IMG/VR virus record: IMGVR_UViG_3300017779_000065
Span: 1 to 33,164 of that record
Source: a virus
Direction: 5' to 3' (one strand)
DNA: 33,164 nt
Positions 3,924 to 30,938 of the stretch are shown in pieces (position 1 is the stretch's first letter; the number at the start of each line of letters is the position of its first letter). A program made the position numbers and the translations under genes. The notes beneath the pieces were generated by a model that was not told the DNA's origin, searched no databases, and worked only from the letters and a program-made list of their open reading frames with translations.

Positions 3924-3947
3924 GCGGAACAATGGAGAACAATCACT

Positions 3948-4064
3948 ATGGACAGGATAATCATTGTCATACTCATACTCTCATTCTGTACAGTTGCATT
4001 GTGTAGTAAAGACCCTCATACTATAATACGAGATATGCGACAATCTACGGAAAAGGTACAATAA
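3948..4064 (+). CDS. Small membrane or signal-anchored peptide, 38 aa
   Basis: ATG 3948 has GGAG at 3934-3937 upstream. The peptide opens with one basic residue and a strong hydrophobic helix (DRIIIVILILSFCTVALC), followed by a short polar tail rich in Arg, Lys and Gln. This fits a signal anchor or a small secreted peptide; no good lipobox is visible. An ATG at 3932 in another frame gives only 24 residues and is less likely. It is probably the last gene of the operon begun at the 3518 promoter. Function unknown. Confidence 0.45.
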   Translation: MDRIIIVILILSFCTVALCSKDPHTIIRDMRQSTEKVQ

Positions 4065-4305
4065 AACATTGAGTCGTTGTGTTTAAAGTCTGCGGCCACT
4101 CGGCAATTTTCTGAGACACACTGAGATTACCCCATAGAGCATTCACAGCGTACACACAGCGTATGCTCCATCTAGCTGCATATGCAACACATCAAATAAC
4201 ATTCAAGCCAATCAGCATCGCCGAGCATCGCAACAAGCAAGCGGCCTGCAGTCATTCTACCCCTGATACAGTCTAAAAAAAATGAGTATATAACCAAATT
4301 AACCC
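4065..4305. other. Non-coding stretch, locally GC-richer
   Basis: I find no open frame longer than about 30 codons here on either strand. Base composition differs from the surroundings: 32 of 60 bases are G or C in 4201-4260. It contains short direct repeats (CACAGCGTA at 4144-4152 and 4155-4163; AGCATCGC at 4214-4221 and 4224-4231) and a TGCATATGCA palindrome at 4177-4186. It leads directly into the strong promoter at 4306. It may be a regulatory or RNA-coding segment, but I cannot assign one. Confidence 0.4.
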
Positions 4306-4334
4306 TTGACAAGTTTTGTATATACCTGTATAAT
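4306..4334 (+). promoter_or_regulatory. Perfect consensus sigma70 promoter
   Basis: TTGACA at 4306-4311 and TATAAT at 4329-4334 are separated by exactly 17 nt. This is the full bacterial housekeeping consensus, as used by early promoters of T4-like phages. Transcription would begin near 4341, about 37 nt before the ATG of the 49-aa peptide. Confidence 0.85.
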
Positions 4335-4377
4335 GACTCTGAGGGTCAAAAGAATAGCTGTATCTAAATAGATCATT

Positions 4378-4527
4378 ATGTGGCATCATCCGTCTTATTA
4401 CAAACGTCTCGCAGAAATACGCAGAGAGGAAGAGAAAAAAGAAAAGAAAAAGGCCTTGACAAAGGCTGAGTTATCTGATAGGATAGAAAAGCAAACTAAG
4501 GAAAGCATCAGCGATTGCTTAGAGTGA
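4378..4527 (+). CDS. Early 49-aa charged peptide
   Basis: This small frame is the first start codon downstream of the perfect sigma70 promoter. It begins MWHHPSYYKRLAEIRR and continues with a dense run of Glu and Lys (residues 17-29) and a second amphipathic stretch (LTKAELSDRIEKQTKES). It is almost certainly helical, perhaps a coiled coil. There is no membrane segment or cysteine cluster. No clear ribosome-binding site precedes it, which is not rare in this window. Small charged early phage proteins often bind host proteins, but here that is only an inference from position and composition. Confidence 0.55.
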   Translation: MWHHPSYYKRLAEIRREEEKKEKKKALTKAELSDRIEKQTKESISDCLE

Positions 4528-4841
4528 TTCCTTTCTTTGCATTCTCTATGGCATTCTGAATTAAGGATGTTGTGGCCCACATAGGTTTCTCACCGAAAGT
4601 TCTCTCATTAGAGTGTGGGGTGGAAGTTTCAGACACTGCCATAGAGATCATTCATCATACGCAATAGTTGTACGGGCGCCTTATATCAAAGGTGGTGCTG
4701 GTAATCTATAAAGTACAGTAGACCTTTGTATATGTCGCAGAGGGTTATTCATCTGAGAGAACGCAAAGACACTGCCCCCCTAAAACTGAGCGTAGTTCAT
4801 GTACATGTGACCTCTCAAAATTTTGGGATATATTTTTTTAC
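4528..4841. other. Non-coding stretch before the tRNA
   Basis: No convincing gene is present; the longest forward frame (4732-4845, 37 codons) lacks a ribosome-binding site and any recognisable character. The stretch contains AGACACTGCC twice (4631-4640 and 4767-4776), a CATGTACATG palindrome (4798-4807), and near its end an AT-rich hairpin with a T run. It would be transcribed from the 4306 promoter as a long 3' region of the peptide mRNA or as an untranslated RNA. Confidence 0.4.
4814..4839 (+). terminator. Possible weak intrinsic terminator
   Basis: CTCAAAATTTTGGG can fold into a short hairpin (C-G, T-G and A-T pairs), followed by ATA and a T-rich tract ending in seven Ts at 4833-4839. 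It lies just upstream of the tRNA promoter, where a terminator would make sense. The stem is AT-rich and short, so it is weak. Confidence 0.25.
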
Positions 4842-4870
4842 TTGACTTGGTAATGCGAATGTGTTATATT
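4842..4870 (+). promoter_or_regulatory. sigma70-type promoter for the tRNA
   Basis: TTGACT at 4842-4847 and TATATT at 4865-4870 have a 17-nt spacer. Transcription would start near 4877, about 17 nt upstream of the mature tRNA. Confidence 0.7.
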
Positions 4871-4893
4871 GACAATACAACGTGTGGGTGTAT

Positions 4894-4970
4894 GATCTCG
4901 TAGCTCAGTTGGATAGAGCAATAGTCTTCTAAACTATAGGTCGTAGGTTCGAATCCTACCGAGATCGCCA
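4894..4970 (+). tRNA. tRNA-Arg (anticodon TCT)
   Basis: The 77-nt sequence folds as a standard cloverleaf: acceptor GATCTCG pairs fully with CGAGATC; D stem GCTC/GAGC with the loop GG; anticodon stem ATAGT/ACTAT with loop CTTCTAA (anticodon TCT); T stem GTAGG/CCTAC with loop TTCGAAT; discriminator G and an encoded CCA. It reads AGA, which is by far the most visible arginine codon in the phage structural genes here. It is the only tRNA in the window and has its own sigma70-like promoter, so it probably supplements a low-abundance host tRNA. Confidence 0.95.
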
Positions 4971-5021
4971 CTCGTATTAATCTAACACTTTGAGTCGTTC
5001 TTGTTTTGTTCTACATATGTT

Positions 5022-5066
5022 CTAGGTCAGCGAGCGAAAAAGTGTTGTGAATCCTAGCGTTTTTTT
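5022..5066 (+). terminator. Possible terminator after the tRNA
   Basis: CTAGG (5022-5026) can pair with CCTAG (5053-5057), followed by CG and a run of seven Ts (5060-5066). A wider inverted repeat, AACACTTT (4984-4991) and AAAGTGTT (5039-5046), could form a competing structure. The position between the tRNA and the next promoter fits a terminator, but the loop is long and the stem short. Confidence 0.3.
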
Positions 5067-5069
5067 CTA

Positions 5070-5098
5070 TTGACAAGGTGGGCGATTTCTGATAGTAT
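5070..5098 (+). promoter_or_regulatory. sigma70-type early promoter
   Basis: TTGACA at 5070-5075 and TAGTAT at 5093-5098 are 17 nt apart. Transcription would begin near 5105, 20 nt before ATG 5125. It probably drives the operon of four small genes through 6116. Confidence 0.75.
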
Positions 5099-6123: not shown

Positions 6124-6131
6124 TATAAATA
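6124..6131 (+). promoter_or_regulatory. T4-type late promoter (TATAAATA)
   Basis: An exact TATAAATA starts 7 nt after the previous stop and lies 38 nt before ATG 6170, which has AAGGA at 6155-6159. It marks the switch from the early-type operon to late genes. Confidence 0.75.
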
Positions 6132-6169
6132 AGTATATAACAAAGTAAATTTACAAGGATTAACAAGTC

Positions 6170-6931
6170 ATGGCATCGTATTGTGTATCAGGTCAAACTC
6201 AAGAGTATCTAGGGTTCGCAGAATATTTAATATATCAAACTCTATTTTCATCTATCAAGGCAACAACGCCTGTACAAACTAAGACAGAAGAAAATTCTAA
6301 AGACTACGATTTAATTGTAGGAAGTCATGTGGCATCAATGGCCGCAGATGATGATCTAGATAATACAGATAGTGGAAGAGCTTGGTCATGTACTGATAAG
6401 TTTGCTCTTGATGGTCTCGCAAATGCTGCCGCTTTAAAATCAGCAGTAGATGCTCGTATTACAAAATGTAATGCATCATGGTCACACACAGTAGATAAAA
6501 TTGTTTATCGAACATATAGAACAACAAATTACAATACTCAATTATATGGAAGTGCTTGGTTAAAAACTGAAACAGATTCAGTTGTCACTACATCTTACGA
6601 TAAAGTTATAGGTGCAGGCGATAAAGTAATTCATGTAAGTTGGGATGACACTTCAGATTCAAATTCACACTTCCTAAGAACAATGGCAAGATACGAAGCA
6701 ATGGACAATGGTGCAGGTGTTGATTGGGATGAAAGAAAAAAAGCATACGCAAGAAATATACTTGCAATTACTTACCCGTCAACTGCTAATGATTACAAAC
6801 TATGTATTGATAAAATTCTAAACAAAGACGATACTGAGTATGCTGGTCTTTGTACATTTCTAGGAGTATCTGGTATATCATCAGCGACTTGGAAAACTTA
6901 TGTAGATGCTTACTTGACAGCTATTGCTTAA
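6170..6931 (+). CDS. Late 253-aa protein, C-terminal half like the tandem pair
   Basis: This protein is the first gene after a late promoter. The N-terminal half (1-150) is rich in Thr, Ser and Asp and begins MASYCVSGQTQEYLGFAEYL; I do not recognise it. The C-terminal half follows the same layout as the paralogues at 1587 and 2231: a strand plus acidic turn (VIHVSWDDTSDSNSHFLR), a helix with DERKKAYARN, and a final EYAGLCTFLGVSGISSATWKTYV matching their EY..L..FL....W.K.YV ending. A shared, possibly sulfotransferase-like fold is inference. As a late gene it may be a virion component or may act with the oxygenase and radical SAM enzyme downstream. Confidence 0.6.
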   Translation: MASYCVSGQTQEYLGFAEYLIYQTLFSSIKATTPVQTKTEENSKDYDLIVGSHVASMAADDDLDNTDSGRAWSCTDKFALDGLANAAALKSAVDARITKCNASWSHTVDKIVYRTYRTTNYNTQLYGSAWLKTETDSVVTTSYDKVIGAGDKVIHVSWDDTSDSNSHFLRTMARYEAMDNGAGVDWDERKKAYARNILAITYPSTANDYKLCIDKILNKDDTEYAGLCTFLGVSGISSATWKTYVDAYLTAIA

Positions 6932-6949
6932 TAGTAAAAATTTTTTATT

Positions 6950-7534
6950 ATGAAATTGTCGGACTTTATTACAACAAAAGATTTTATTGAATGCGTTGAA
7001 AGTTATCCTTTCGCAATTCGCAATCTACTTACCGAAGCAAAACAATACCACATCACACGACACTCTGGTCAAAGAGTAAATTATCAAATCGATCTTGAAT
7101 TAACCACAATGGAAAACGTAGGCACCATTCATACTTCAAATGTAAATGCACCTATGACAGATTGGAAGATGCATGAGAAACACGAAACTTTCAAATGGAT
7201 TAGTGATCGTGCTTGTGAGATTGCAAAAGGTCTATCTCAAAAAATGGCAAGAGTAGAATTTAGAACATTAGATTGTTGGGGAGTATATTACAGACACAAC
7301 GATTGGACTAAACGACATTCACATTGGCCATGCATTTTTGCGTTTGCTTATTATTTAAAGGTACCAGAAAAACCAGCACCTATTATTTTTCCTACAGCTA
7401 ATTATGAATACAATCCTAAAGTTGGCGATCTAGTTTTGTTTCCTGGTCAGATACAACATGAAGTTAAACCTGTCGAGGGTGAAAGAATTATGATCTCTGG
7501 CAACTTGGTAGTGGACTATGATACAAGGTTGTAA
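6950..7534 (+). CDS. 2OG-Fe(II) oxygenase family protein
   Basis: The 194-aa protein has the jelly-roll signature of the phage 2OG-Fe(II) oxygenase group: WGVYYRHNDWTKRHSHWP (iron-site histidines near 123/125), a core strand FAFAYYLKVPEKPAPIIF, then GDLVLFPGQIQHEV with the distal iron ligand H170, and the 2-oxoglutarate arginine in GERIMISGNL (R179). These enzymes hydroxylate protein, nucleic acid or small-molecule substrates using 2-oxoglutarate and oxygen. Marine T4-like phages often carry several, mostly of unknown substrate. No ribosome-binding site is obvious. It overlaps the radical SAM gene by 17 nt, which suggests the two enzymes are made together late in infection. Confidence 0.85.
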   Translation: MKLSDFITTKDFIECVESYPFAIRNLLTEAKQYHITRHSGQRVNYQIDLELTTMENVGTIHTSNVNAPMTDWKMHEKHETFKWISDRACEIAKGLSQKMARVEFRTLDCWGVYYRHNDWTKRHSHWPCIFAFAYYLKVPEKPAPIIFPTANYEYNPKVGDLVLFPGQIQHEVKPVEGERIMISGNLVVDYDTRL

Positions 7535-8627
7535 AGTTCCTAGCACCTCACTTGTTATAGAGGCCGCAGGTAATCTAACTTTATGTTGTCATGCATATCC
7601 TCACACAACAGGACACATTAGTAAAGTAAATAGTTTAGAAGATTTTTTTAATTCAAGTGTCATGGATTATTATAGAGACGAATTGGCAAATGGAAATATC
7701 AAAACTTTAAATCCTTGCAACACATGTTATAAAAAAAACAAAGAAGGGTTTACTACTTTTCGAAATAGAATAGAAGACTATTATAAATTTCCTAGAGAAG
7801 AGTTAGATAAGAAAGCAAGACAAGTAGGAATGAATGTTCCTATAAGATATTTAGAATATACCTTATCTAATATTTGTAATCAAACGTGTGCGATGTGTAG
7901 TAGTAATTGTAGTCATGCATGGATAGAGTTAGATAAAAAATTTGGTCGCCCTGTTCGTCCTCTTTCAAAACTCGATCAAGAGTCTATTGAAAAAATAGAA
8001 AAAATTTTATACGGATTAGATTATGTAAATCTAAAAGGTGGAGAACCTTTTGCTGATATACGAAACCTTAGAATACTTAAAAAACTAATTGAAGTAAATC
8101 CTAAATGTAATATTGAGATTGTCACTAACATGCAAAGTATAACACCTGAGACAATGTTAATACTGAAACAACTTCCAAACATAAAACTATTTGCAAGTGT
8201 CGATGGTGTAGGTAAAGTCTATGATTGGATACGAGGAGGCAACTTTGAAAAGACAGTTAGTAATATGGAAAACTTTTATAATGAAACAGGAAACACAATT
8301 CAAATAGGAACAACGATTAGTTTATATAACTTTTATAGTTTAGAACCAATACAAGAATACTTTGAAAACAAACCTTACATTCATAACATTACATTTGATA
8401 ACTGGGTAGAGGGTCCCTCATATTGTTCAGCATTATGTTTACCTGAAGATATGTTTAATAAAAGATTAGAAGAATTAAAACAAAGAATTAACATTGTTCC
8501 TATAACATGGAAATCAACAGAAAGAGATATGAAACAATACTCTTTAGAAGAAACAGAAAAGATGAATGATCACAGAGGATTTAATTTGTTTGATTACGTG
8601 CCAGAATTAAAGGAGTGGTATAAATAA
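7518..8627 (+). CDS. Radical SAM protein, twitch/SPASM-like
   Basis: The 369-aa protein carries the radical SAM cluster motif CNQTCAMC (C120, C124, C127), which binds a 4Fe-4S cluster, and the SAM-binding GGEP at 174-177 in LKGGEPFAD. Before it, an N-terminal segment has CC at 23-24 in NLTLCCHA and a CNTC pair at 67-70, resembling the auxiliary-cluster (SPASM/twitch) segment, here placed ahead of the radical SAM barrel. The start overlaps the oxygenase gene by 17 nt; no better start exists. Such enzymes catalyse radical chemistry, often on peptides. The substrate is unknown. Co-expression with a 2OG oxygenase in a late operon suggests a virion protein or a small molecule as target (inference). 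Confidence 0.85.
   Translation: MIQGCKVPSTSLVIEAAGNLTLCCHAYPHTTGHISKVNSLEDFFNSSVMDYYRDELANGNIKTLNPCNTCYKKNKEGFTTFRNRIEDYYKFPREELDKKARQVGMNVPIRYLEYTLSNICNQTCAMCSSNCSHAWIELDKKFGRPVRPLSKLDQESIEKIEKILYGLDYVNLKGGEPFADIRNLRILKKLIEVNPKCNIEIVTNMQSITPETMLILKQLPNIKLFASVDGVGKVYDWIRGGNFEKTVSNMENFYNETGNTIQIGTTISLYNFYSLEPIQEYFENKPYIHNITFDNWVEGPSYCSALCLPEDMFNKRLEELKQRINIVPITWKSTERDMKQYSLEETEKMNDHRGFNLFDYVPELKEWYK
8619..8626 (+). promoter_or_regulatory. Possible late promoter overlapping a stop codon
   Basis: TATAAATA occurs exactly at the end of the radical SAM gene, where it also encodes the last Tyr-Lys-stop. The octamer ends 5 nt before ATG 8632, so a transcript from it would start at or just before that codon. 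Start codon 8644 would then have a short leader. It may be chance, since the codons impose the sequence. Confidence 0.4.
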
Positions 8628-8631
8628 TATT

Positions 8632-9612
8632 ATGAATTATCACATGGGACTAGACGGATTTATATGGTTCATCGGTGTTGTAGAGAATAGAAACGACCCA
8701 TCACAAATGGGAAGAGTACAAGTTAGATGTGTATCGTTTCATACAGACAACAAGAATGATCTACCAACTGAGGATTTACCTTGGGCAACTACCATGTTGC
8801 CAACTACAGCCTCGGCCAATTCTGGTCTAGGTTCTAATCCTTTTTTAGCTGAAGGAACATGGGTACTTGGATTTTTCTTAGATGCCAAGACCAAACAACA
8901 GCCTGTAATACTTGGAACACTACCAGGCAAACCCTCATCGTTAGGAGAAACTGCAAAAGGATTTAATGACCCCAATACAAGACCTGCACCAGAAATAGGT
9001 GTAAGTGTTTATCCTAAAGTTGCAGGCGAACCTGATATTGATAAACTTGCTCGTGGTACAAACACAATTGATAAAACAACTGATCTGACAAAGGATGTTA
9101 ACATTGCAAATTCAACGACAACTTGGAGTGAACCCGATAGTGCCTATAAGACGACCTATCCTTACAACAGAGTATTTAAAACAGAGACAGGTCATGTCAA
9201 AGAATACGATGACACAGAGGGTGAGGAAAGAATACATGAATACCATAAGGCTGGAACATTCTACGAAATCGATAAAGACGGAAATAGAACCACTAGGATT
9301 GTTAAAGATAATTATGAGATTATTGCTGGTGCCAATTATGTTAATGTCAAAGGCGATGTTAATCTTACTGTTGATTCCAATTGCAATACATATGTCAAAG
9401 GAGATTGGAACATACAAGTCGATGGCAACAAGATCGAAAACATCAAAGGAACATCAACAGAAACAGTAGATGGTGTCGCAACTAAAACATTCAAAGGTAC
9501 TGGTTCTGAAGTGACTGCAAAAAATTCATCTGGCACAGATATTAAACTCACAGGTCACACACATACTGACCCAGCTGGAGTTGCTGGAAGTGAAACATCT
9601 ACACCTAATTAG
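8632..9612 (+). CDS. gp5: Baseplate hub protein gp5 (OB-fold/spike, no lysozyme)
   Basis: The N-terminal 105 residues match the OB-fold of T4 gp5/VgrG-type hub proteins: GFIWFIGVVENRNDPSQMGR, then LPWATTMLP, GTWVLGFFLDAKTKQQPVILGTLPG. The middle has NRVFKTETGHVKEYDDTEGEERIHEYHKAGTFYEID, the segment that leads into the triple-stranded spike. Short valine/glycine-spaced strands follow (VNVKGDVNLTVD, VKGDWNIQVDGN), ending in HTHTDPAG. T4 gp5 (575 aa) has a lysozyme domain between the two parts; here the 326 aa leave no room for it. It forms the central tail spike. ATG 8632 is used; 8644 (MGLDGF) is a real alternative. Confidence 0.85.
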   Translation: MNYHMGLDGFIWFIGVVENRNDPSQMGRVQVRCVSFHTDNKNDLPTEDLPWATTMLPTTASANSGLGSNPFLAEGTWVLGFFLDAKTKQQPVILGTLPGKPSSLGETAKGFNDPNTRPAPEIGVSVYPKVAGEPDIDKLARGTNTIDKTTDLTKDVNIANSTTTWSEPDSAYKTTYPYNRVFKTETGHVKEYDDTEGEERIHEYHKAGTFYEIDKDGNRTTRIVKDNYEIIAGANYVNVKGDVNLTVDSNCNTYVKGDWNIQVDGNKIENIKGTSTETVDGVATKTFKGTGSEVTAKNSSGTDIKLTGHTHTDPAGVAGSETSTPN

Positions 9613-27693: not shown

Positions 27694-28368
27694 ATGAAAG
27701 TAAGCACAAACGATGGTGCAACCCATGAAGTGGTTAAACCTGTTAAAACAACCCCACAGATAAAAGTTGCGAATTACTCTAACGAAGATTCTACAATTAA
27801 AAATCTTACAAAAGAAACTTTTGCTCACGCAGAGTTTATCAATAACGATAGAACAGTTTGTAAAATATATTGGAAGAACCCAGATGGTCATGGAAACGTA
27901 GATAAAGAGTTAGATCACTTTACAGTAAATCTAGAAGATACAACAGACGACGGCAAAGAACACCCTTACATTACAAAACTTTTCGAGTTAACAACTCTTG
28001 ATGAAATGCATGAGAACACTTGGAATAGAATGAAAGGTCAACAAAAAATGTGGCGTGAGTTTGCTATTAAAATTGCAAAACAAGACGGACTAATTATTGA
28101 CCCTGTTGCTTATTATGACTCCGATACACAATCAGCAAAACTAGATACTAAGTTTTTTGGACAAACACTACAATTATTGTTTGAAGATTTTGATGTAGAA
28201 AAACAAAAAGAAGATTTGTTTATTATTAAGTTAGCTGCATTTGAATTAGATATGGTTAAGTCATCTAACGATAGAGAAAGAAAAACAAGACTTAGAAAAG
28301 CAAAAACACCTCTTGAAGTATTAAGTATATTACTTGAATTAAAAGAGATAACAGAAATCCCTGTTTAA
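27694..28368 (+). CDS. Hypothetical 224-aa protein
   Basis: A good ribosome-binding site (AGGAG at 27682-27686) precedes ATG 27694. The N-terminal half is beta-like and polar; the middle has NTWNRMKGQQKMWREFAIKIAKQDG. The C-terminal half is helical and charged (LLFEDFDVEKQKEDLFIIKLAAFELD, RERKTRLRKAKTPLEVLSILLELKE). I do not recognise the family. The C-terminal charged helices suggest an interaction or assembly protein. The gene ends head-on with the minus-strand glycosyltransferase gene, and the two stop codons overlap. Confidence 0.65.
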   Translation: MKVSTNDGATHEVVKPVKTTPQIKVANYSNEDSTIKNLTKETFAHAEFINNDRTVCKIYWKNPDGHGNVDKELDHFTVNLEDTTDDGKEHPYITKLFELTTLDEMHENTWNRMKGQQKMWREFAIKIAKQDGLIIDPVAYYDSDTQSAKLDTKFFGQTLQLLFEDFDVEKQKEDLFIIKLAAFELDMVKSSNDRERKTRLRKAKTPLEVLSILLELKEITEIPV

Positions 28369-29186
28369 GAATCTAAAATATTAAAAACTCTCTCAAAATC
28401 TTTTGTGATAACATGTACTAGACAAGAGTATTTTATTCTTGCATCTACTGTATCTGTTAATACTAGTTCATGCCAATGTGGGGGAACATCAAGAACAGGT
28501 ACTTTGTATTTGTCTATCATATAAGAAGCAAAAACTTCATTGTTATAAAAATATCTTTTATCAATATGTTTAATACTATCAATTAGTTTTTTACATTCAT
28601 CCATTCTCTCAGAAAATTTAAGTTGATCTCTTGCAATATGATTACCACCAAATATTCCTGTATTAACAATAACATTCTGAGTAAGTGGTACACCATCTAC
28701 TTTCATCATATCTTTTTTCATTAGACCTTTAATCAACCAATGATATTCATCTAGTTCTTTTAATTGATCTTTATATTCTTTTGATTGTGTTCTAATAGAA
28801 AACTCATGTCTAGTTTCTAATTTAGTTCTTAATCCAACTCGTTCATTAAAATCATCAATAGGAATGAAATGAGTAATAAATTTATTAAAATCAAATTTGT
28901 CAAATATATTAATATTGGTATTAGGAATAACATCAAAGTCAAGATATAATACTCTGTCATACTCATTACAAAACTCTTCCCATTTTTGAATCTTGTATAT
29001 ATTTAAATCATCATACTTAGTAGAGTTTGGTGTTAGTAATTTAAAATCTGCATTACATATTTCAGCATAATTTTTTAAACCGTCTCTTAATCGATGAAAA
29101 TGTTTTTCGAATTGTATTGAGTTATGACTTCTCTTTTTTGTAGTGTCAGTAATCTTTGTGTAAATGCTAAATATTAGATCGTTCAT
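28365..29186 (-). CDS. Glycosyltransferase-like protein B (GT-A fold, DFD)
   Basis: I start this 273-aa protein at the ATG at 29186 rather than an in-frame ATG at 29225. GGAGAG lies just upstream of 29186, and the paralogue begins with similar residues (IYSIY versus IFSIY). The core has EYDRVLYLDFDVIPNT with a DxD motif at 83-85, and VNTGIFGG at 174-181: the metal- and acceptor-site pattern of nucleotide-sugar-dependent transferases. The end (VPPHWHELVLTD) resembles the paralogue's VQWLDSKWHYFYD. It probably transfers a sugar to host or phage surface glycan or to phage DNA/protein; the substrate is unknown. It overlaps the upstream paralogue by 20 nt and ends in the stop of the converging gene. 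Confidence 0.75.
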   Translation of the reverse strand: MNDLIFSIYTKITDTTKKRSHNSIQFEKHFHRLRDGLKNYAEICNADFKLLTPNSTKYDDLNIYKIQKWEEFCNEYDRVLYLDFDVIPNTNINIFDKFDFNKFITHFIPIDDFNERVGLRTKLETRHEFSIRTQSKEYKDQLKELDEYHWLIKGLMKKDMMKVDGVPLTQNVIVNTGIFGGNHIARDQLKFSERMDECKKLIDSIKHIDKRYFYNNEVFASYMIDKYKVPVLDVPPHWHELVLTDTVDARIKYSCLVHVITKDFERVFNILDS

Positions 29187-30066
29187 ATGCTCTCCAACAA
29201 TAATCAAATTCTTTATTAATCGCATGGATTATTTTTGTATCTTTAGGAATGTGTAATTCCGAATCGTAAAAATAATGCCACTTACTATCTAACCATTGTA
29301 CTGGCACCTCATTAGATACTAGTTTATATGAAAAGATAGTTTCATTATCAAATCCAAATGTATCTGTTATGTTTTTAGGATACATACTATCTGATTTATA
29401 TTCCTCTGTTTTTAGATACTTCATTATATCATAAGTTGTATCAATGTCAACAAAAAAGCCTAGTCTATTCAAACTTTCTTTTGTTGCACCAATAATCCCT
29501 GTGTTAACAACATTACATTGAGGGTCATAATCTGTTTCTTCTAACATTGCCATTGCATTAAAATATTTTGCAGAGGGTGATCTTATTGTTCCTTTAATAT
29601 CAAAAAGTGTTTGACCACTGTGTCGTATCTGTTTGTTGTTATGCACGATTGCTATACCTTTACTTAAATCCCATGCATCAAAAAAAGATTCATTTGTCAT
29701 TGGAACAGTATCAAAATCTAAGTATAATACTTCATCATATTTTTCTGCAAGATCATAGAGTAAATGAATCTTATATTCATTCACAATATTGTATGAAGTA
29801 ATAAAAGGATAGTTTGTATTATAGAATTGTTTTAGTTTTTTGTACTTTTCATCATACTCAAATAGTTTAAAATCAGCACCAATTGATTCTGCATATTTCT
29901 TTTTACATTCAACTAATCTACTATAATGTTCTTTAAATTTCTTTTTAGTATTGATGTTAGTAGGAGTCTCATTTTCTCTTCTTATTGCTTTATCAAAGAA
30001 ATCCAACTCTTTTTCAGGTATATCAATATATATGCTGTAAATAACTCTTGACAATGTATCATCCAT
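29167..30066 (-). CDS. Glycosyltransferase-like protein A (GT-A fold, DFD)
   Basis: The 299-aa protein is the first gene of the minus-strand pair. EKYDEVLYLDFDTVPMTNESFFDAWD contains the DxD motif at 117-119, and CNVVNTGIIGATKE (185-198) is the matching acceptor-side loop. The N-terminal ADFKLFEYDEKYKKL corresponds to ADFKLLTPNSTKYDDL in the downstream copy, so the two genes are a diverged tandem duplication. A perfect sigma70 promoter lies upstream, with a leader of only about 16 nt and no clear ribosome-binding site. It is expected to be an early enzyme modifying host or phage glycans. The family call is good; the substrate is not known. Confidence 0.75.
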   Translation of the reverse strand: MDDTLSRVIYSIYIDIPEKELDFFDKAIRRENETPTNINTKKKFKEHYSRLVECKKKYAESIGADFKLFEYDEKYKKLKQFYNTNYPFITSYNIVNEYKIHLLYDLAEKYDEVLYLDFDTVPMTNESFFDAWDLSKGIAIVHNNKQIRHSGQTLFDIKGTIRSPSAKYFNAMAMLEETDYDPQCNVVNTGIIGATKESLNRLGFFVDIDTTYDIMKYLKTEEYKSDSMYPKNITDTFGFDNETIFSYKLVSNEVPVQWLDSKWHYFYDSELHIPKDTKIIHAINKEFDYCWRAYERSNI

Positions 30067-30088: not shown

Positions 30089-30117
30089 ATTATAGAATAT
30101 TTAGATTGGATTGTCAA
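30089..30117 (-). promoter_or_regulatory. Perfect consensus sigma70 promoter, minus strand
   Basis: On the minus strand, TTGACA (+ strand 30112-30117) and TATAAT (+ strand 30089-30094) are 17 nt apart, the full housekeeping consensus. The -35 box reaches the first base of the epimerase start codon. Transcription would start near 30082 and run into the two glycosyltransferase genes. Confidence 0.85.
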
Positions 30118-30938
30118 TGATTATTTTGATTACAGGTGATAAAGGATTTATTGGGTCTCATCTTAGACAGTCGTTAGTAAGTGAAGGTCACATTGTCTTA
30201 GGATTTGATCATGTAGATGATTATGATGTCGGTAATATTACTGAGGATATTGTTAAAAAAGTAAACAAGATTGTTCACTTAGCTGCATACGCAGATGTTC
30301 GGGCAAGTATGGAAGACCCTAACAAATGGTATGAAAACAATGTAGTAAAATCGAGTCGTCTATTTGAATTATGCAATAAGTTTAATACACAATGCGTATA
30401 TGCTTCATCGTCATGTGTGAAAGAATGGTGGAAGTCGCCATATGGTACTTCTAAAAAAGTAATGGAAGATATGGCAAATGTGCATGGACGATTTGTTGGT
30501 TTAAGATTTTCTAATGTTTATGGTGATAATGGTAGAGAGACAATGCTACTACCTTTGATGTTAAAAGGAAAACTTAAATACTCTACTAATCATACTAGAG
30601 ATTTTGTTCATGTTAATGATGTAGTAGATTGCATAAAACTATTTCTAAAAATGGACAACTTTGACAATCTTGATGAATTAGTTTATAATGTGGGAACAGG
30701 AACAGGAAGAAGAATATCTGATCTTGTAAAACAGTATGGATATGATGTACCAATTACAGAAGGTGACCCATGTGAAATGAAAGATAACACGGCAGACAAC
30801 GCTAATCTCTTAAAATTAGGGTGGTCGCCAAAAGAGAATTTAGATAAATACTTAAAAGGAAAATTAAATGGCGATACCAACAACAAAGAGTACATTCAAG
30901 GATTACTGCCTAAGAAATCTAGGGTTCGGAGTAATTGA
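30117..30938 (+). CDS. NAD-dependent nucleotide-sugar epimerase/dehydratase
   Basis: This 273-aa extended short-chain dehydrogenase starts at ATG 30117; a TTG six bases upstream is in the same frame but less likely. Motifs: Rossmann loop GDKGFIG (7-13), HLAAYADV (54-61), the catalytic serine in ASSSC (96-100), YGTSK with Y109/K113, FSNVYGDNG (131-139) and RDFVHVNDVV (161-170). Such enzymes epimerise, dehydrate or decarboxylate UDP-, dTDP- or GDP-sugars. The specific sugar cannot be told. It lies back-to-back with the glycosyltransferases and could supply their donor. It has a late promoter. Its last 24 codons overlap gp13 in another frame. Confidence 0.85.
   Translation: MIILITGDKGFIGSHLRQSLVSEGHIVLGFDHVDDYDVGNITEDIVKKVNKIVHLAAYADVRASMEDPNKWYENNVVKSSRLFELCNKFNTQCVYASSSCVKEWWKSPYGTSKKVMEDMANVHGRFVGLRFSNVYGDNGRETMLLPLMLKGKLKYSTNHTRDFVHVNDVVDCIKLFLKMDNFDNLDELVYNVGTGTGRRISDLVKQYGYDVPITEGDPCEMKDNTADNANLLKLGWSPKENLDKYLKGKLNGDTNNKEYIQGLLPKKSRVRSN

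Follow-up and report, generated by a model that had tools for sequence, protein, structure and literature searches.

The best reading of the genes in front of the baseplate hub gene gp5 in this marine T4-like phage is a conserved two-gene core with an exchangeable third member. The core encodes a 253-aa protein, predicted to have a sulfotransferase fold, and a 2OG-Fe(II) oxygenase; the third member is a radical SAM enzyme. Late in infection the cassette may alter the chemistry of surface molecules of the phage or the host, and its target could be a virion protein. No description of the 253-aa/2OG pair was found in the freely accessible literature searched, and the same literature yielded no experimentally identified substrate for any 2OG oxygenase of a marine T4-like phage. 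This 2OG subfamily keeps one partner gene, a late promoter and a set position next to gp5, which makes the pair a concrete one to test.

Gene layout and late promoter

The window, by which we mean the whole 33,164-nt stretch analysed (IMGVR_UViG_3300017779_000065), comes from a marine T4-like phage and is a virus fragment of 33 kb. Its gp6 most resembles those of the Pelagibacter phages Mosig and HTVC008M and the Methylophilales phage Melnitz (49–52% identity). The features discussed here are as follows.

1587–2234, + strand: paralogue of the 253-aa protein, sulfotransferase-fold family by homology (profile comparison)
2231–2857, + strand: second paralogue of the 253-aa protein (profile comparison)
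6124–6131, + strand: late promoter TATAAATA, T4-type, 46 nt upstream of the 253-aa gene start
6170–6931, + strand: P0001, 253-aa protein of predicted sulfotransferase fold, without recognisable PAPS-binding residues (predicted model, alignment, paralogue profile match)
6950–7534, + strand: P0002, 2OG-Fe(II) oxygenase, 194 aa, prolyl-hydroxylase-like predicted fold (Pfam, PHROG, model, alignment)
7518–8627, + strand: P0003, radical SAM enzyme, 369 aa, N-terminal twitch domain, NF033640 N_Twi_rSAM (profile)
7518–7534, + strand: 17-nt overlap of the 2OG and radical SAM genes (gene coordinates)
8619–8626, + strand: second late promoter motif TATAAATA, within the 3'-terminal part of the radical SAM gene, 13 nt ahead of gp5
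8632–9612, + strand: gp5 baseplate hub/spike, conserved downstream neighbour (PF06714/phrog_430)
28365–29225, − strand: GTa, GT8-like glycosyltransferase; orthologues flank the radical SAM gene in L043–L045 and L051
29167–30066, − strand: GTb, GT8-like glycosyltransferase; orthologues flank the radical SAM gene in the same four loci

Three intact genes follow the first promoter: the 253-aa gene, an 18-nt gap, the 2OG gene, the 17-nt overlap and the radical SAM gene, with gp5 4 nt on. A preliminary description of this DNA had reported a late promoter, three closely packed genes just upstream of the hub gene and a 17-nt overlap of the two enzyme genes, and both the coordinates and the placing of the motif agree with it. 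Its identification of the enzymes holds as well (PF13759/PF13640 for the 2OG oxygenase; PF04055 and SPASM for the radical SAM enzyme), and late expression of two modification-type enzymes beside gp5 is backed by TATAAATA, Pfam and the gp5 profile matches. The overlap itself varies among relatives: 17 nt in the window, 14 nt in L011 and none in L008 and L009. All three genes are under purifying selection, with dN/dS values between the window and L003 of 0.19 for the 253-aa gene, 0.12 for the 2OG gene and 0.41 for the radical SAM gene.

The motif TATAAATA matches the T4 late promoter. Its number in the window shows no enrichment (8 against 5.1 expected, a count of 8 being reached by 18 of 100 shuffles). 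Its placing is another matter. All eight copies are on the + strand and all eight lie 5–60 nt upstream of a start, where 4.9% of positions qualify and 13.4% of the matches to scrambled octamers of the same composition fall. As in a T4-type late transcription unit, the motif stands closely upstream and is kept in relatives: it is present before the operon in nearly all of them, and 26–47 nt upstream of the homologous start in most. A paired TATAAATA in L005, L006 and L030 precedes an inserted DctP gene, itself upstream of the 253-aa gene. Chance origin is ruled out by placing, though the count alone is non-significant, and the TATAAATA at 6124 is, judged by position and conservation, a real late promoter. 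The second copy falls within the last stretch of the radical SAM gene, and gp5 therefore seems to be under a separate late promoter of its own.

Further upstream, positions 3924–5070 of the window comprise ∼1.1 kb without a convincing protein gene, with a tRNA-Arg(TCT) at 4894–4970. Mosig likewise carries a tRNA-Arg(tct) close to its baseplate genes.

A conserved pair and a mobile third gene

A search with the 2OG protein gave 32 loci. Among the gp5-site loci that reach far enough upstream, the 253-aa family precedes the 2OG gene except in L008 and L009, and gp5 lies downstream. An independent search, started from the 253-aa family, found 20 loci, and the 2OG gene is downstream in every one, down to ∼30% identity; these and the other co-occurrence counts rest on records that are nearly all fragments, not whole genomes. 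In L158, two extra 2OG-type genes stand between the 253-aa gene and the 2OG gene. The radical SAM gene behaves differently. It accompanies both partners only in the window lineage (the window and L001–L003), it is found with the 2OG gene and without the 253-aa gene in L008 and L009, and it is found with the 2OG gene in L011, a locus cut at its 5' end. Elsewhere in the records searched, the radical SAM gene occurs with neither a 253-aa nor a 2OG gene detected. A separate 2OG clade lies near gp32, without a 253-aa gene.

The three genes had been proposed to form one system. Co-occurrence of all three across relatives, the mark of a fixed three-gene system, is not what we found, and we reject the triad because the radical SAM gene also occurs away from its companions. 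The suggested check for independent occurrence in relatives gave a divided answer: the radical SAM gene is independent, whereas the 253-aa and 2OG genes are kept as a pair (20 of 20). This separates the pair from the radical SAM gene, whose place is with the glycosyltransferase islands. Retention of the pair could partly reflect shared descent within one phage group.

The interval between promoter and gp5 varies in content. It can hold a DctP gene, an FkbM methyltransferase, a second 2OG enzyme, a 260-aa protein or the radical SAM gene, and PAAR and IscA genes also occur near this slot. The equivalent gp5–gp25 interval of HTVC008M and Mosig is likewise full of accessory genes. Individual loci give a sense of the range. 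The DctP gene (L005:1470-2405, also L006 and L030) encodes a TRAP-type solute-binding protein (1.8e-35) behind the operon's late promoter. In locus L158 (598-2948) the sulfotransferase-fold gene is followed by three different 2OG-type genes in succession, of which one is aspartyl/asparaginyl beta-hydroxylase-like. An IscA-like Fe-S carrier is encoded directly or closely downstream of gp5 in L009 (6894-7208), L010 and L011, loci that carry the radical SAM gene or are related to carriers. The 260-aa protein (L012:6487-7269 and homologues) occupies the radical SAM slot in L012–L024 and has no family match; neither Pfam nor PHROGs confirmed its assignment as a nitroreductase.

Profile searching recovered ∼80 viral radical SAM loci. 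Most lie between VrlC/tail-fibre genes and neck genes, and the usual companions are GT8-like glycosyltransferases, the phrog_1962 glycosyltransferase family, methyltransferases and small radical SAM proteins, with an epimerase also among the neighbours. In L043–L045 and L051 the radical SAM gene lies exactly between orthologues of GTb and GTa. In L047–L049 and L053 it is near capsid and tail-tube genes, which were identified by eye from sequence. A maximum-likelihood tree groups the window-lineage copies with the between-glycosyltransferase copies and L047 (98/96), and groups the gp5-site copies of L008 and L011 with L052 (100/99), apart from the window lineage. This branching suggests that the gene reached the gp5 site at least twice, or moved repeatedly; a parsimony test on the two small groups by itself leaves a single origin at the gp5 site possible. 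A search of bacterial genomes for radical SAM relatives gave no confirmed match. The ∼205–225-aa neighbours of radical SAM genes were considered as sulfotransferase-fold kin and ruled out by profile comparison; they comprise one family of glycosyltransferases, one of small radical SAM proteins and one that is methyltransferase-like. In the window, the GTa and GTb genes overlap and are mutually homologous, and a nucleotide-sugar epimerase gene follows on the + strand (30117–30938).

Similar assemblages have been described. Radical SAM cassettes occur in the host-recognition islands of pelagimyophages, where alteration of the host surface or avoidance of coinfection has been proposed (PMC7029224). 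Those clusters and our loci share radical SAM genes, glycosyltransferases and variable late-region islands, but the window's radical SAM gene is upstream of gp5, beside the sulfotransferase-fold/2OG pair and outside the island. Also on record are marine viruses of the T4-like type in which as many as 12 radical SAM genes occur together with an A-type Fe-S carrier (PMC5332604); the IscA-like gene nearby in L009–L011 is a point of likeness, whereas the window has no such carrier gene.

Predicted folds and family membership

The radical SAM enzyme P0003 is a full-length member of NF033640 N_Twi_rSAM (208.6 bits against a curated cut-off of 170, profile positions 5–398 of 398). Its CxxxCxxC (CNQTCAMC) and GGEP motifs are intact, and the twitch LCC and PCxxC motifs are kept in all five aligned rows. 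It differs from this family in nothing defining; its place before gp5 is unusual among relatives.

The 2OG enzyme P0002 scores 40.1 and 27.8 bits against PF13640/PF13759 (gathering cut-off 27 each) and matches phrog_81 (2.2e-25). Its model (pLDDT 87) is most similar to the uncharacterised marine bacterial proteins 2rg4 (Z 17.8) and 3bvc (17.1). Next come the chlorella-virus collagen prolyl hydroxylase vCPH (Z 16.1), a Pseudomonas P4H (15.9), for which a complex with EF-Tu has also been solved, and PHD2 (15.9). SnoN, a glycan-acting tailoring enzyme, nearly equals the prolyl hydroxylases (Z 15.1). The model has the fold similarity expected of a prolyl 4-hydroxylase, and these matches fit protein hydroxylation by a prolyl-hydroxylase-like enzyme. 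Residues H123-S-H125, H170 and R179 are invariant in the family alignment. Read from sequence against the usual HxD/E...H iron triad, the histidines would be the iron ligands and R179 the 2OG-binding arginine, and the HSH...H motif would place a His where an Asp/Glu ligand is usual.

Few accessory genes are as numerous in marine T4-like phages as those for 2OG oxygenases, which are common in cyanophages and pelagiphages; the eight weak 2OG-profile matches in HTVC008M indicate that the genes are common and that their roles may be diverse. Cyanophages carry multiple 2OG genes (PMC10436341), and a 2OG gene of S-TIM4, which mutated as the phage adapted to sub-optimal hosts, has been discussed in connection with nutrient response (PMC6224464). 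The window enzyme shares its profile match and prolyl-hydroxylase fold with the phrog_81/PF13759 oxygenases of marine T4-like phages. In contrast to these others, it forms a subfamily of its own, whose partner gene and position ahead of gp5 are both fixed; its nearest matches in sequenced phages are <35% identical. Separately, PHROG 274 is labelled 'DNA endonuclease V' and matches 2OG-Fe(II) oxygenases at L158:1907-2344 and L013:1508-2032, to which PF13640 matches too. The label, copied to gp034 and gp039 of HTVC008M, may be wrong.

The 253-aa protein P0001 has no notable match in Pfam, NCBIfam, PHROG or PDB sequences, and a sequence search against annotated phages gave none. It had been listed as an unknown protein, a label that the structural comparison replaces with a predicted sulfotransferase fold. 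A model built from 17 homologues has medium confidence (pLDDT 71.8, pTM 0.78), and its top 50 matches among PDB structures are all sulfotransferases (Z 8.2–9.1). The best Foldseek match is the curacin sulfotransferase domain (E 0.017, probability 0.94), and BFVD matches include phage sulfotransferases. The profile of the family also matches the paralogues at 1587 and 2231, which are distant relatives (probability 91%, E 1.1e-6).

The resemblance to sulfotransferases probably ends with the fold. Alignment and model secondary structure, read without superposition, place no K/R in the strand 1–helix 1 loop of any aligned family row, so the 5'-PSB lysine appears to be missing; the 3'-PB arginine for PAPS appears replaced. 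Without these residues ordinary PAPS-dependent catalysis is unlikely. The protein would thus share its predicted fold with SULT, TPST, 3-OST and curacin ST and differ from them in having no recognisable 5'-PSB lysine, 3'-PB arginine or Pfam match.

The 253-aa protein diverges more quickly than its neighbours: identity with its L005 counterpart is 59%, as against 87% for the 2OG protein. Its composition is S/T/D/N-rich and K/E-poor, with S+T at 19.8% as against ∼10% in the paralogues. A small within-window classifier scored it 0.62 as a virion protein, whereas a larger one, with families held out and 46 of 48 families classed correctly, gave 0.12–0.56. In view of these scores, composition was not used as evidence for a virion protein. 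The two tandem paralogues are mutually 63% identical and are overlapped by an SGNH-like hydrolase gene; together (941–2857) these genes make up a second small cluster of possible surface-modification genes.

What the cassette may do

Our tentative preference is for a late accessory cassette, in a variable slot before gp5, whose 2OG enzyme hydroxylates a phage protein made late. We favour it on account of the protein-hydroxylase fold, the late timing and the constant partner. We infer the enzyme activity, its substrate and the role of the 253-aa partner as follows. The middle-to-late switch would fire TATAAATA, and the core pair would be produced alongside the virion proteins. The 2OG enzyme would hydroxylate a baseplate or fibre protein, or its sulfotransferase-fold partner, and the partner would bind or present the substrate with no transfer of sulfate. 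In lineages that carry it, the radical SAM enzyme may add a further modification, its gene having perhaps been drawn from the same stock of late-region enzymes that supplies the glycosyltransferase/tail-fibre island. In L008, L009 and the gp32 clade the 2OG gene is kept with no 253-aa gene beside it, so the 253-aa protein is not its only substrate generally. If a virion protein is what the pair modifies, phage particles would have a post-translational modification system of a kind not found described in the freely accessible literature searched.

Sulfotransferase folds often act on glycans, and the three proteins might instead act on host-envelope sugars or lipids or on fibre glycans, so as to alter receptors or shut out other phages at a late stage of infection. 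We consider this somewhat doubtful, yet the link between radical SAM and glycosyltransferase genes keeps it close behind protein hydroxylation. Radical SAM relatives are repeatedly found beside GT8-like and phrog_1962 glycosyltransferases, methyltransferases and an epimerase, some of them exactly between orthologues of the window's two glycosyltransferases; an FkbM methyltransferase and a DctP-type binding protein are inserted at the gp5 site; and surface alteration or coinfection avoidance has been proposed for such islands (PMC7029224). However, 20 kb separates the window's glycosyltransferases from these genes and no glycosyltransferase adjoins the pair at the gp5-site loci, the PAPS site of the 253-aa protein is unrecognisable, and the 2OG enzyme finds its best structural counterparts among protein hydroxylases, though SnoN is close.

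It is unlikely that the slot is simply a hotspot where separate auxiliary genes share a late promoter with no joint function, the pair being kept by descent. The varied contents of the slot and its surroundings would suit such a hotspot, as would the accessory-rich gp5–gp25 interval of HTVC008M and Mosig and a radical SAM gene that is found apart from the pair and has the highest dN/dS in the window lineage. Yet the pair survives many insertions and low identity, and purifying selection acts on all three genes. The least probable of these explanations places the 253-aa protein itself in the virion, as a derivative of a sulfotransferase-fold enzyme, and has the neighbouring 2OG enzyme hydroxylate it. 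Lost PAPS motifs, a composition unlike that of the paralogues, faster evolution and strict pairing with the 2OG gene point this way; the low virion-like score with families held out and the survival of the 2OG gene without the 253-aa gene in L008 and L009 point the other. A dedicated phage module strikes us as quite improbable too: the sulfotransferase-fold protein, its donor site lost, would be a substrate or adaptor for its prolyl-hydroxylase-like neighbour, and through its late production virions or the infected cell's surface would carry protein that is hydroxylated and, in some lineages, radical-SAM-modified.
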